From contig CAJOFY010000008.1 in assembly GCA_905233945.1 (NCBI GenBank), positions 1 to 47,686 of the forward strand: a stretch of DNA of 47,686 bases. Reading direction: 5' to 3'. The stretch comes from an uncultured bacterium. GTDB taxonomy: Bacteria; UBP6; UBA1177. Position 1 is the stretch's first letter, and each line of letters begins with the position of its first letter. Under the pieces are notes generated by a model. The model saw nothing but the letters and a program-made list of their open reading frames with translations. It was not told where the DNA came from and ran no database searches. Positions 41,214 through 47,686 of this stretch are shown piece by piece. The translations under genes were made by a program, and so were the position numbers.

Positions 41214-43277
41214 ATGAAGAAAATCACTCTTGTTTCCGCACTTTTCATACTGTTTTTCGCAGTTTCCTGCGATTCAGGAATCAAGTTTGAGAATCCGAAT
41301 GACAGAAACTCTGATGCATATCATGGCGACAGCGATCAGATTACACCCGATGATGACAGAGAACAGCCTGACGATCAGGATAGTGGTAAAGGCAGAAAAC
41401 AGGGTGAACTTTACGGCGAATGCTATCCAAACAAAACCTGCAACGAAGGACTTGAGTGCGATATTGAAAATAATATCTGCATAAAAGAAAGTGCCAATGA
41501 CAACAATTCAACTTCAGACAACGATAAAAATACAACAGATTCCGATGATTCACAATCCGACAATGACACAGACTCAAGTGATTCAGGAGATTCCCAATCT
41601 GACGACAGCGACAGTTATGATTCCACCGATGATTCCGGCGATTCTGAGCCGGATTACACAAACATCACCGATGACGGCGATACTTCAGCACCAGATGAAG
41701 ATGATGACAATCATGACACAACACCGGACGATGACGCCGACACATCGGCAGATTCACCAACCGATGAGCCTGAATGTGCTTGTGAACTCGACCCTGACGC
41801 TGATTCTGACGGAGACGGTATTCCTAACAACATAGAAACTTGCAAAGACTATGATAACGATTCTATTCCCAACTGTCTCGATAGTGACAGTGACGGAGAC
41901 GGTATTCCTGACAAAACCGAGTGCTCTTCCCAGCCTTGCAAAGATATCGATGGAGACGGAGTACCCGATTTCATTGACAAGGACAGTGACAACGACGGAC
42001 TCACAGACAAAGACGAAAAGGAAAAAGGGACTGATCCCTGCAACAAGGATACCGACGGAGACGGCAGCGATGACCTTGCTGAAATCGTCTATGGTTCAGA
42101 TCCTCTTGACAACGGCAGCCGCATTCCTGAAGGACTTTTCTATGTCGTTCTCCCCTACAACGCAAAATACAATGTCAGCAGAATATGGGAATTTAATACC
42201 AACATTTCCAAAATCGATGTTGCCTTTCTGCTAGACCTTTCAGGTTCGATGGATGAAGAACAGGCAAACCTCAAAGATAAGATTAAAACCGATGTCGTTG
42301 AGAAAGTTAAAACTTTGAATGAAGGTACTCTTGATGCTGCCTACGCTTTTGCTCACTTCATGGATTTTGACAAAGATGACATGGATCGAATCTACAAGGT
42401 AGACACACTGATAACGACAGATGTTGACGAACTGAAAGCAGCTATAGACTCAACACCAACTCCTTACGGCGGTACAGAATGCCACTGGCTTGTCCTTTAT
42501 GCCGCGACGACAAGCGAAGATATTTACGGTACTTGCCAGCCTACTGGAATGGACGGCTTAATGAACAAAGCGACCTGCAACTTCCCGAAACCTGACTGCT
42601 CCGGCAGAGTCGGAGACAGAGGAGGTCTCTGCTTCCGAGAAAAATCGATGCCGGTTCTTATCATGATAACGGATGAAGGTCCTACTGACACCAAAATGCC
42701 ACCTGTCAATGAACTCGCATCCACCCTTGCGATGCAGACACTTCTAGAACAAAGTGCAAAATTCATAGGTATCCGCTCGACAAACAACAATGTTGAAATA
42801 GATTCTTTTTACAACTCTCTCGCTGAACTCACGGGAACTCTTGATAAAAACGGCAACAACTTCAATTTCGAAGTCGGAACAGACGCTATTGCAGCTGACG
42901 GCAAAGCGATGAGCGAAAAGATCGGTGAAGCGATTGAAAATCTTACATCTTTCGTCCAGATGGACGTGTGGGTCGCAGGAAATTCAAACGAATTTTGCCA
43001 AGGCACAGAGCTGAGTACCGCAAATTTCATTATTGGCGGATTTCCGATTAAAGCCGTGCCGCCGGAAGGAGCACAGATAGACGAAGCAAACATGAAATTC
43101 CTCAAAGTAAATCCTGGAACCGTCGTAACTTTCGATGTCCAGTTCCATAACGATTTCTGTTCCAATCCGACGGCAGATCCGGTTCTCTACAAAGCCGAAG
43201 CGATGGTGTTGGGCGAAGGTGCTTATCTTTCCAAAAAAGAAGTTCAGATCATCGTTCCGAAAAGCGAAAGCATATAA
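41214..43277 (+). CDS. Lipoprotein with acidic stalk, thrombospondin type 3 repeats and vWA domain
   Basis: A 687-residue lipoprotein with lipobox AVSC (Cys19), followed by Asp at +2. In enterobacteria Asp at +2 keeps lipoproteins in the inner membrane, so its location may differ from its neighbours. A short Cys segment (70-89; CYPNKTCNEGLECD) precedes an Asp/Ser/Asn stalk (~95-190). Calcium-binding thrombospondin type 3 repeats follow (~195-300; DSDGDGIPN, DSDGDGIPD, DIDGDGVPD, DSDNDGLTD, DTDGDGSDD). The vWA domain (~334-565) has an intact MIDAS start, DLSGS (341-345). The C-terminal ~110 residues are not recognised. The gene starts 8 nt after glgA, with its GAGG overlapping the glgA stop. 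It is likely a metal-dependent binding protein; the ligand is unknown. Confidence 0.85.
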   Translation: MKKITLVSALFILFFAVSCDSGIKFENPNDRNSDAYHGDSDQITPDDDREQPDDQDSGKGRKQGELYGECYPNKTCNEGLECDIENNICIKESANDNNSTSDNDKNTTDSDDSQSDNDTDSSDSGDSQSDDSDSYDSTDDSGDSEPDYTNITDDGDTSAPDEDDDNHDTTPDDDADTSADSPTDEPECACELDPDADSDGDGIPNNIETCKDYDNDSIPNCLDSDSDGDGIPDKTECSSQPCKDIDGDGVPDFIDKDSDNDGLTDKDEKEKGTDPCNKDTDGDGSDDLAEIVYGSDPLDNGSRIPEGLFYVVLPYNAKYNVSRIWEFNTNISKIDVAFLLDLSGSMDEEQANLKDKIKTDVVEKVKTLNEGTLDAAYAFAHFMDFDKDDMDRIYKVDTLITTDVDELKAAIDSTPTPYGGTECHWLVLYAATTSEDIYGTCQPTGMDGLMNKATCNFPKPDCSGRVGDRGGLCFREKSMPVLIMITDEGPTDTKMPPVNELASTLAMQTLLEQSAKFIGIRSTNNNVEIDSFYNSLAELTGTLDKNGNNFNFEVGTDAIAADGKAMSEKIGEAIENLTSFVQMDVWVAGNSNEFCQGTELSTANFIIGGFPIKAVPPEGAQIDEANMKFLKVNPGTVVTFDVQFHNDFCSNPTADPVLYKAEAMVLGEGAYLSKKEVQIIVPKSESI

Positions 43278-45506: not shown

Positions 45507-45583
<77 letters not shown>

Positions 45584-45591
45584 GCGCCCCG

Positions 45592-45894
45592 CTATGATCT
45601 TCTTGAATCAACTTTTTTGTCTTTTGATCTCGCCATCTGCTTTACCAGCTTGTCGATGCAGAGATCTATCGAAGTCTGAAATTCCTTGTCGTCCGAATCG
45701 CTTGCAAGGAACTCTTCGCCGTTGTTGTTCAGCTTGATTTCGGTTGCTTTGATATTTTTGTCTTTCTGAAAAACAACTTCGACAACGGCATTTGCCGAAA
45801 CGAACTTTTCAATTTTGGAAAGTTTTTTGGTTACATAGTCTTTAAGACCGTCACTGTTTTCTTCAAATCCTCTGAAAGCGAAATTGATGTTCAT
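45592..45894 (-). CDS. hpf: Ribosome hibernation-promoting factor, short form (HPF/RaiA)
   Basis: Binds the 30S decoding centre of idle ribosomes. The 100-residue protein matches the short HPF/RaiA domain: a beta-alpha-beta start (NINFAFRGFEENSDGLKDYV), KLSKIEKF, and the C-terminal helix IDLCIDKLVKQM with a basic tail. It lacks the long-form dimerisation domain, as in E. coli HPF or YfiA. AGGAGG is placed well for the ATG at 45894. It has a canonical promoter and is followed within 8 nt by the tRNA-Arg gene, so tRNA and Bax-like gene may be on the same primary transcript. Confidence 0.85.
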   Translation of the reverse strand: MNINFAFRGFEENSDGLKDYVTKKLSKIEKFVSANAVVEVVFQKDKNIKATEIKLNNNGEEFLASDSDDKEFQTSIDLCIDKLVKQMARSKDKKVDSRRS

Positions 45895-45934
45895 AAATTC
45901 CTCCATCTAAACTAAAAAAACAAAACAACGGAAA

Positions 45935-46070: not shown

Positions 46071-47198
46071 TTAGTGAGCTTTTCTGAACGATTCCATGAA
46101 GTTGACAAGTGTTTCAACGCTTTCCGGAGTCGTCGAATTGTAGATGCTGGCTCTGATTCCGCCGAGGGTCCTGTAGCCTTTAAGACCGAGCATGCCCTGA
46201 GCTTTTGCCGTTTTAACGAACTCGTCTTCAAGTTCCGGAGTCGGAAGGTTGAAGGTTACGTTCATCCATGAACGGTGTTCAGGATTCTGGACATAGCCTC
46301 TGTAGAAGCCGTTGGAGTTGTCGATCGCGCCGTAGATCATCTTCTGTTTCTTGTCGTTTCTTTCTTCCATAGCCTTCAGGCCGCCCATTTCGAGCATCCA
46401 TTTGAAAACAAGGCCGGTGATGTAGATGTTGAAGCAGGGCGGTGTATTGAACATGCTGCCTTTTTCGATCTGAACTTTGTAGTCAAGAGTCTTCGGAAGC
46501 TGGAAGCCTTTCTTCTGGAAAGTTTCAGCCCAGGACTTTTTGATAACTACGACTGTAACGCCTGCGGGGCCGACATTCTTCTGTGCGCCTGCATAGATCA
46601 TGTCGAATTTCGTAGCGTCGAAGCTGTGTGACATGAAACCGCTGGACATATCAGCTACAAGCGGAACGCCCGGGAGAGGTTTCGGATAGTTTTTCTCAAA
46701 GAACTGGGTTCCGTAGATCGTGTTGTTCGAGCAGAAGTGAAGGTATTTTGCGTTCGGGTTCATGTTTTCCTGTTTTACTTCAGGAAGAACGCAGTATTTC
46801 TTCTCAAGTTCGCGTGTCGAAGCGATGCAGTTAGCCTTTGCTTTCGCCCAGTCAGCCTGGATGCAGGCTTCTTCGTAAGCTCTGTGTGCCCAGTTACCGG
46901 AATCAACGTAGTCAGCGCAGTCGCCTTCGTTGAGAACGTTCATCGGGAGCATGATGAACTGATGTGTTGCGCCGCCGCCCAAGAAAAGGACAGCGTAGTC
47001 GTCGCCGAGGCCGAGAAGTTTTTTAAGATCTGCCTCTGCTTCTTCTGTTACAGCTATGAAAGCCTTGTCTCTGTGGCTGATTTCCATAACGGAAACGCCC
47101 GTGCCTCTGAAATTGAGAAGTTCTGCCTGAGCCTGTTTGAGGACTTCAAGCGGAAGCGCAGCCGGACCTGCGAAAAAGTTGTGAGCTCTGTTTTCCAT
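46071..47198 (-). CDS. serC: Phosphoserine aminotransferase
   Basis: A PLP enzyme transferring an amino group from glutamate to 3-phosphohydroxypyruvate in serine synthesis, also used in pyridoxine synthesis in some bacteria. The 375-residue protein starts with NFFAGPAALP, has LFLGGGATHQF (PLP phosphate region), SSGFMSH and the Schiff-base Lys207 in YAGAQKNVGPAG. It ends with GYRTLGGIRASIYNSTT. GGAG lies upstream of the ATG. It is a single gene closed by tandem hairpins. A convincing promoter was not found: TTGACT at 47273-47278 is 19 nt from AGTAAT. Confidence 0.96.
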   Translation of the reverse strand: MENRAHNFFAGPAALPLEVLKQAQAELLNFRGTGVSVMEISHRDKAFIAVTEEAEADLKKLLGLGDDYAVLFLGGGATHQFIMLPMNVLNEGDCADYVDSGNWAHRAYEEACIQADWAKAKANCIASTRELEKKYCVLPEVKQENMNPNAKYLHFCSNNTIYGTQFFEKNYPKPLPGVPLVADMSSGFMSHSFDATKFDMIYAGAQKNVGPAGVTVVVIKKSWAETFQKKGFQLPKTLDYKVQIEKGSMFNTPPCFNIYITGLVFKWMLEMGGLKAMEERNDKKQKMIYGAIDNSNGFYRGYVQNPEHRSWMNVTFNLPTPELEDEFVKTAKAQGMLGLKGYRTLGGIRASIYNSTTPESVETLVNFMESFRKAH

Positions 47199-47289
47199 TT
47201 TTTACTCCATAAAAATATCGGTTGTTAAATAAGCTCCAAAAAACGGGATTACTCAACCATTTAAAAATAATAAGTCAAATTTTTCCGTA

Positions 47290-47389
47290 ACGGCGTGACG
47301 ACGTAACGCCGTGTCGATATTTCGATTCGCCGCCGGTTCGTTATTTCGAAATGTCGAAATCTCGATATATCGAAACAAATTTGGCGGCG
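47290..47389. repeat. Cluster of nested palindromes rich in TCGA
   Basis: The cluster holds ACGGCGT (47290-47296) with ACGCCGT (47306-47312) and TCGATATTTCGA (47314-47325). An outer CGCCGCC (47328-47334) with GGCGGCG (47383-47389) encloses ATTTCGA (47343-47349) / TCGAAAT (47354-47360) and the perfect 12-mer TCGATATATCGA (47362-47373). It lies between serC and the AEC permease gene. Confidence 0.65.
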
Positions 47390-47397
47390 CTGAAAAT

Positions 47398-47452: not shown

Positions 47453-47686
47453 TTGAATCTGGTTGAGATTGTTCTGACGATAAATTTTCCGATATTTTTA
47501 GGCTGGATCTTCAAACAGCTGAAACTCTTCCCCGACAACGAATCAGCCGTTCTTCGCAAATTCGTCATAAAAGCCACGGTTCCTTTCCTTATCTTCAGAA
47601 ACCTCTACAACGCCGATACGCATGAGTTCAGCCAGATGCTGCCGATGATCACCGCTCTCTGCCTGACTCTTGTTCTTTCCGCGGTT
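47453..47686 (+). CDS. AEC-family permease, N-terminal fragment
   Basis: The frame runs off the right edge; 78 codons are visible. The start is TTG at 47453 with GAGG about 6 nt upstream. The first helix (IVLTINFPIFLGWIFKQLK), then FPDNESAVLRKFVIKATVPFLIFRNL, follow the pattern of auxin-efflux-carrier (AEC) transporters, whose N-terminal helix is followed by a short loop and a helix ending in LPALLF-like residues. Known bacterial members export malate or other organic acids. Too little is seen to suggest a substrate. Confidence 0.7.
   Translation, partial: MNLVEIVLTINFPIFLGWIFKQLKLFPDNESAVLRKFVIKATVPFLIFRNLYNADTHEFSQMLPMITALCLTLVLSAV

Follow-up and report, generated by a model that had tools for sequence, protein, structure and literature searches.

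The stretch of DNA between serC and an AEC-type permease gene in an uncultured UBP6 bacterium raises the question of what a cluster of nested TCGA palindromes within 100 bp might be: an array of operator sites, a structured RNA or a small mobile repeat, the three options given in the original prediction. In the window (the whole stretch of DNA analysed, 47,686 nucleotides), direct reading of the sequence located each of these palindromes, namely a 12-nt perfect palindrome TCGATATATCGA at 47362-47373, the 7-nt arms ATTTCGA/TCGAAAT at 47343-47349 and 47354-47360, the near-palindrome TCGATATTTCGA at 47314-47325, and the pair ACGGCGT (47290-47296) and ACGCCGT (47306-47312). The flanking genes are divergent and both are supported by Pfam. 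What had been missed is that the palindromes are joined by an exact 8-bp CG register, with 11 consecutive CG dinucleotides, one start per 8 bp, the first at 47291 and the last at 47371 (run ends 47372). The pieces of the element and its neighbours are as follows.

46071-47198, minus strand: serC (phosphoserine aminotransferase), left neighbour, from its ORF, PF00266 (Aminotran_5) and serC relatives
47286-47317, no strand assigned: CGT-N-ACG-N array, four units of 8 bp, CGTAACGG CGTGACGA CGTAACGC CGTGTCGA, from sequence, repeat families and a related array in sister species at the serC locus
47326-47393, plus strand: extent of the match to the sequence-only family model R1 (62 bits, E 9.5e-17 in its own genome, the window copy being one of the model's 12 training rows)
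47328-47334, plus strand: left arm CGCCGCC, from sequence, kept in alignment A1
47339-47372, plus strand: CG-NN-AT-NN lattice array, five CGs at 8-bp steps, CGTTATTT CGAAATGT CGAAATCT CGATATAT CG, from sequence and the genus-wide pattern; overlaps the 12-nt palindrome at 47362-47373
47373-47382, plus strand: asymmetric right spacer AAACAAATTT, consensus ACAAAAnTT, from alignment A1
47383-47389, plus strand: right arm GGCGGCG, from sequence and alignment A1
47453-47686, plus strand: start of the AEC-type permease, whose frame leaves the window end, from its ORF and PF03547 (Mem_trans)

The element has a direction, because the right spacer is asymmetric.

The register is specific to a step of 8 bp. 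CG runs at other periods (5-13) reach at most 5 anywhere in the window, and the longest period-8 run in 200 first-order Markov sequences as long as the window was 6, versus the 11 observed; direct-repeat families spaced 8 and 16 bp and tandem arrays with periods of 16 and 8 bp were also found in the window. Among loci from the genus, which were partly chosen for the element, there were 160 distinct windows of five CGs at period 8 versus 0-13 at periods 5-7 and 9-13, and four units was the commonest array length (58 of 135 arrays), both counts excluding loci outside the genus (serC relatives) and all viral loci. In genus loci, a scan for degenerate units found 249 distinct windows with period 8 and another 93 with period 9 (coding repeats included), with 0 in shuffled sequence; periods 10, 11, 13 and 14 gave 0-4, period 6 gave 13, period 12 gave 76, and period 7 gave none. 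A fixed 7-8 bp step of contiguous units is expected of MetJ-like RHH operator arrays, and here such a step was found at period 8 only.

Searches of the organism's own 2.65-Mb genome and of its relatives revealed that the element belongs to a family of short (~30-90 bp), mostly intergenic arrays scattered over the genomes of this UBP6 genus. The rule of the family is that CG (and AT) is fixed every 8 bp while the letters between change freely, in units of the type CG-NN-AT-NN, with CG and AT in turn at 4-bp intervals, or of the type CGT-N-ACG-N. The genome, whose serC shares 97-100% identity with that of MAGs mainly of ruminant origin, gave 46 BLAST matches to the element (many weak, self included), the closest other copy being 82% identical to the one in the window. 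Model R1, built from 12 copies, gave 127 matches on both strands, corresponding by hand count to roughly 50 distinct places. In alignment A1 the left arm GATTCGCCGCC is followed by five CGs spaced 8 bp apart, then by the right spacer ACAAAAnTT and the right arm GGCGGCGTCGA; alignment A2 was set aside because it holds both strands of one copy. All 15 genus genomes matched the model, 13-87 times each, and all 15 contained the pattern CGNNATNN x3+CG in 10-123 windows per genome, with 0 in each of them for the backward control. The left part of the element in the window is made up of a sister array, CGTNACGN, a pattern present in 10 of 15 genomes of the genus and in none of 84 others. A third lattice, of 9 bp and non-palindromic (CCCTANNNN, mostly CCCTARNYW), was present in 13 of 15 genus genomes with a backward control of 0, and in one sister species (L023; others at L277-L296) it occupies the serC slot, upstream of serC. 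The possibility that the element has neither a second copy nor any conservation, which would leave it as chance low-complexity DNA, therefore fails, since it belongs to a dispersed family found genus-wide. By eye, 9-bp runs such as TTATTATCG flank many copies (e.g. L019) and pair in part with the tail TCGACAAGAACGA.

Comparison of the same intergenic region in relatives, as had been suggested for the serC locus, showed that the serC slot of sister species holds a related array. Over eight shared slots (serC and S1-S7), at least 4 CGs at 8-bp steps occurred in 44 of 77 slot sequences and in none of 94 pieces of 500 bp from the rest of the window; in sister species the slots are sometimes empty and sometimes hold a different array. 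These and the substitution comparisons cover loci with synteny at S1-S7 (omitting, e.g., L141, L169, L160, L162, L164-L168 and L171). Between orthologous arrays of the CGTNACGN type, hand-anchored by shared flank, 24 of 60 N positions differ versus 4 of 204 fixed positions, and for the CGNNATNN type, anchored in the same way, 31 of 112 versus 3 of 126; the 15 pairs so anchored were selected by eye and have branches in common, and the p-values of 5e-14 and 9e-9 are indicative only. Such constrained positions are expected of base-specific contacts in a MetJ-like array. The clearest pair is at site S7, where 12 of 16 free letters and none of the 18 fixed ones differ between G014 and G009. An automatic comparison of 108 pairs, a set that may contain non-orthologous pairs, went in the same direction (free, 160/408 and 200/816; fixed, 101/1342; CG, 24/506; AT, 39/408); it and the CGTNACGN anchored comparison were confined to genus loci, with serC-relative loci of other genera and viral loci left out. 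The free letters also have a species flavour, with a G+C fraction of 0.54-0.64 in G005, G009 and G014 versus 0.12-0.28 in nine other genomes, compared at equal locus G+C (0.44-0.47) and on 1-7 arrays per genome, except 35 in the organism's own. That the free letters have local dyad symmetry about CG was considered and rejected, as this symmetry equals the within-element null (0.516 v 0.516); its appearance under a pooled null arose because that null mixed species flavours.

The arrays tolerate inversion and a coding context. The unit lattice is strand-symmetric, the serC-locus element is inverted in one relative (L022, 56 of 58 positions identical), and that at site S2 is inverted in G006 and G011. 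In a census of 38 of the ~50 own sites, made with a crude ORF caller, 12 lay at tandem, 12 at convergent and 8 at divergent junctions, 5 in long stop-free frames and 1 at an edge. One cluster of copies in the own genome lies in the linker of a TonB_C protein (G000:C4:61723-62463; L114, L297-L311). Among the 9 of 15 orthologous loci that were readable (6 in which the search expression found no frame being left out), CG arrays were found in 8 and the CGNNATNN type in 7, with none in G013. TonB_C linkers of several species are encoded by 8-bp arrays, each species with its own flavour. An operator array, one of the predicted options, is the closest of the three to the reading favoured below, yet not as a local operator of the permease, because copies occur at convergent, tandem and divergent junctions and in a coding linker. 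That strand, transcript and reading frame make no difference suggests that whatever reads the arrays acts on double-stranded DNA.

A structured RNA or single-stranded DNA hairpin (a terminator, a 3'-UTR stabiliser or an attC-like site), in which the GCCGCC/GGCGGC arm stem and the inner repeats would be what matters, appears improbable. The region in the window does fold strongly, at -46.3 kcal/mol versus -33.2 +/- 3.2 for dinucleotide shuffles (z -4.2), the inverted arms and asymmetric spacer are conserved, and site S2 lies within the loop of a terminator-like GGCAA/TTGCC + T hairpin. However, when the lattice itself was preserved in the shuffles, 77 strict arrays had a mean of -8.0 kcal/mol versus -10.2 for the shuffles, with 16% folding better than their own shuffle mean and ~84% worse, and an inner RNA hairpin was rejected on this ground. 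Two-sided changes were seen in only 2 of 18 consensus pairs, and arm complementarity was barely above that of mismatched pairings (5.80 v 5.53 +/- 0.11), these fold and arm-pairing comparisons being limited to genus loci, without serC relatives from elsewhere and viral loci. Divergent junctions are used too, and no Rfam family was matched by the element in the window, so that neither stem covariation nor a known family marks it as a structured RNA, and that part of the original prediction is not supported.

The main rival is that the arrays are a non-autonomous mobile or selfish family, MITE-like or resembling Rickettsia palindromic elements, inserting in intergenic slots and permissive coding linkers, with the lattice as the recognition feature of a putative mobilising enzyme; this is a serious if doubtful possibility. 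Of the predicted mobile repeat, the small dispersed repeat was recovered, and as expected of MITEs its copies are present or absent among close relatives, which have both occupied and empty slots. Different arrays in one slot, the copies in the TonB linker, the G+C-rich inverted arms, the inversions, and the position of site S5 near a synteny break in several relatives all fit mobility. Against it, the Y1 transposase family was found in 1 of 15 genus genomes (other transposase families were outside the search), copies are not near-identical, as the best match to the window copy noted above indicates, and a target duplication was not consistent, with a possible TTAA at site S1 only. Furthermore, copies at shared loci keep the lattice while their free letters drift, which is unexpected of decaying insertions. 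At site S3 of G011, a 1.5-kb insert between two copies was found to be an Lcl_C (PF07603) lipoprotein gene (L150:753-2066) and not a transposase, and an autonomous element there was rejected; a ClpB-like 3' end is partly duplicated on the far side of this gene. Functionless low-complexity intergenic DNA, generated by neutral tandem-repeat slippage or template switching, is very improbable. It would account for the difference of exactly one 8-bp unit between G006 and G003/G011 at site S5 and for degenerate arrays of other periods in the genus, but not for identical positions that are fixed across loci and species while others vary, nor for the backward control of 0, and nothing in slippage would protect CG and AT.

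Known intergenic repeats resemble the arrays in part. Rickettsia palindromic elements are palindromic repeats that occur between genes and in frame inside genes, as the present arrays do, but the copies of those elements are similar in sequence, whereas the arrays share only lattice and arms. REPs have not, to our knowledge, been described as having an internal 8-bp lattice. The cognate Y1/HUH TnpA-REP transposase (PF01797), which REP elements need, was not found in the own genome and was found in 1 of 15 genus genomes (and in 5 of 14 control genomes), and a REP/RAYT identity was rejected on its absence from the other 14; no GTAG or CGTC tag of a 20-40 bp REP palindrome was evident in alignment A1. 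The arrays are like REP/BIME with TnpA-REP in being extragenic palindromic repeats with many copies and mosaic modules (PMC8266576), and unlike them in the internal lattice and in the 14 genomes that have no Y1 transposase. Nearest in genomic behaviour are the TAACTGA heptamer repeats, likewise short tandem units, mostly intergenic, with few copies in each set and many sets in a genome, slots that are specific to strains, and length changes in unit steps (PMC4679880). Those repeats have one 7-nt unit, whereas the present arrays have an 8-bp step, distinct fixed and free letters and a strand-symmetric lattice, and period 7 gave 0 windows in genus loci. Intergenic heptamer arrays are characterised in one study as the most abundant intergenic tandem repeats, widespread and unexplained (PMC6344855). 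It is the fixed-and-free 8-bp lattice that sets the present arrays apart from known intergenic repeats, and no description of such arrays was found in the open-access literature, which was the scope of the search (subscription papers and preprints lay outside it).

With double-stranded DNA as the apparent substrate and RNA structure unsupported, a small protein that binds cooperatively in 8-bp steps is favoured, tentatively, as the reader of the arrays. The met boxes of MetJ have an 8-bp step. The omega/ParB heptads of pSM19035 are 7-bp repeats, 5'-WATCACW-3', of which four or more contiguous RHH-bound copies are required (PMC9499535), and four units are commonest here. The resemblance to these RHH operator or partition arrays lies in contiguous short units at a fixed step, several per array and tolerant of orientation; the difference is that those have one consensus and few sites per replicon, whereas here there are dozens of chromosomal sites, partly fixed units and a protein that is putative. 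A DNA-binding protein, probably a small dimer, would make its contacts at the fixed letters, and neighbouring dimers would bind side by side at the 8-bp step in the manner of MetJ on met boxes and omega/ParB on heptads. Arrays of 3-5 units could then seed a cooperative complex at about 50 or more sites on the chromosome, possibly serving nucleoid organisation, segregation or a global regulon, and a changed preference of the protein may have taken the free letters from A+T-rich to G+C-rich in one species group. With at least three unlike arrays (CGNNATNN, CGTNACGN and the 9-bp CCCTANNNN), one protein is unlikely to read all of them.

Several points speak against a protein reader. The G+C-rich arms and right spacer are unexplained by protein binding alone, and the arms suggest by their resemblance a hairpin or inverted ends; slot differences between species also fit mobile arrays, and the region in the window has a stronger fold than plain dinucleotide shuffles, at the z value given above. 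Variable lattices on some viral contigs, described below, count against this reading as well. The free letters have no local dyad symmetry around CG beyond the within-element null, and the two modules (CGT-N-ACG-N and CG-NN-AT-NN) are out of common register at other loci, the phase seen in the window occurring in 1 of 10 pairs, the window's own, so that a shared register was rejected. A broader proposal is somewhat unlikely as a whole: a genus-wide DNA code in which only letters at fixed 8-bp steps are selected in dozens of arrays, read by a putative cooperative lattice-binding protein that would co-evolve with the free letters by species and be tolerated in a gene, with the 8-bp lattices CGNNATNN and CGTNACGN and the 9-bp CCCTANNNN competing for intergenic slots.

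In bacteria, the repeats between genes typically consist of near-identical copies or of simple tandem units, whereas here a spacing rule is shared and not a sequence, which is why ordinary repeat finders and Rfam miss the arrays. Should a protein prove to read the rule, uncultured rumen bacteria would have a new way of reading DNA across the whole genome; selfish arrays would instead be an example of an element that stays recognisable while about half of its letters drift.

Beyond the genus, none of the 13 other phylum members had CGNNATNN x3+CG, and a set of 358 further genomes included 15 with 1-6 windows, several of these windows being repeats of identical units; a model search of 46 non-genus genomes gave one weak match each in 2. 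The degenerate-unit scan gave none at periods 7 and 8 in 16 loci outside the genus. On viral contigs, variable CGNNATNN lattices (at least 3 distinct units) were found in 28 of 50 stretches versus 8 of 48 for the backward control, and the phenomenon is therefore wider than the genus and strict genus exclusivity is weakened. The degenerate-unit scan of viral loci, which were chosen for period 8, gave mainly that period plus 31 windows at period 7, and the four-unit CGTNACGN pattern gave one viral match, with identical units. For two lattice-bearing viral contigs no relatives were found among annotated phages. Several variable CGNNATNN arrays are carried by each of the viral contigs L201, L205, L222, L223, L230 and L194/L226, and the flanks of some lattice-bearing viral contigs look Bacteroidota-like by eye.

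Elsewhere in the window, the sole Rfam match is a tRNA gene at 45510-45583 on the minus strand, adjoined by a small ORF (45592-45906, minus strand) that presumably resembles a ribosome hibernation factor, and a large lipoprotein-like ORF with Asp/Ser-rich repeats occupies 41214-43277.
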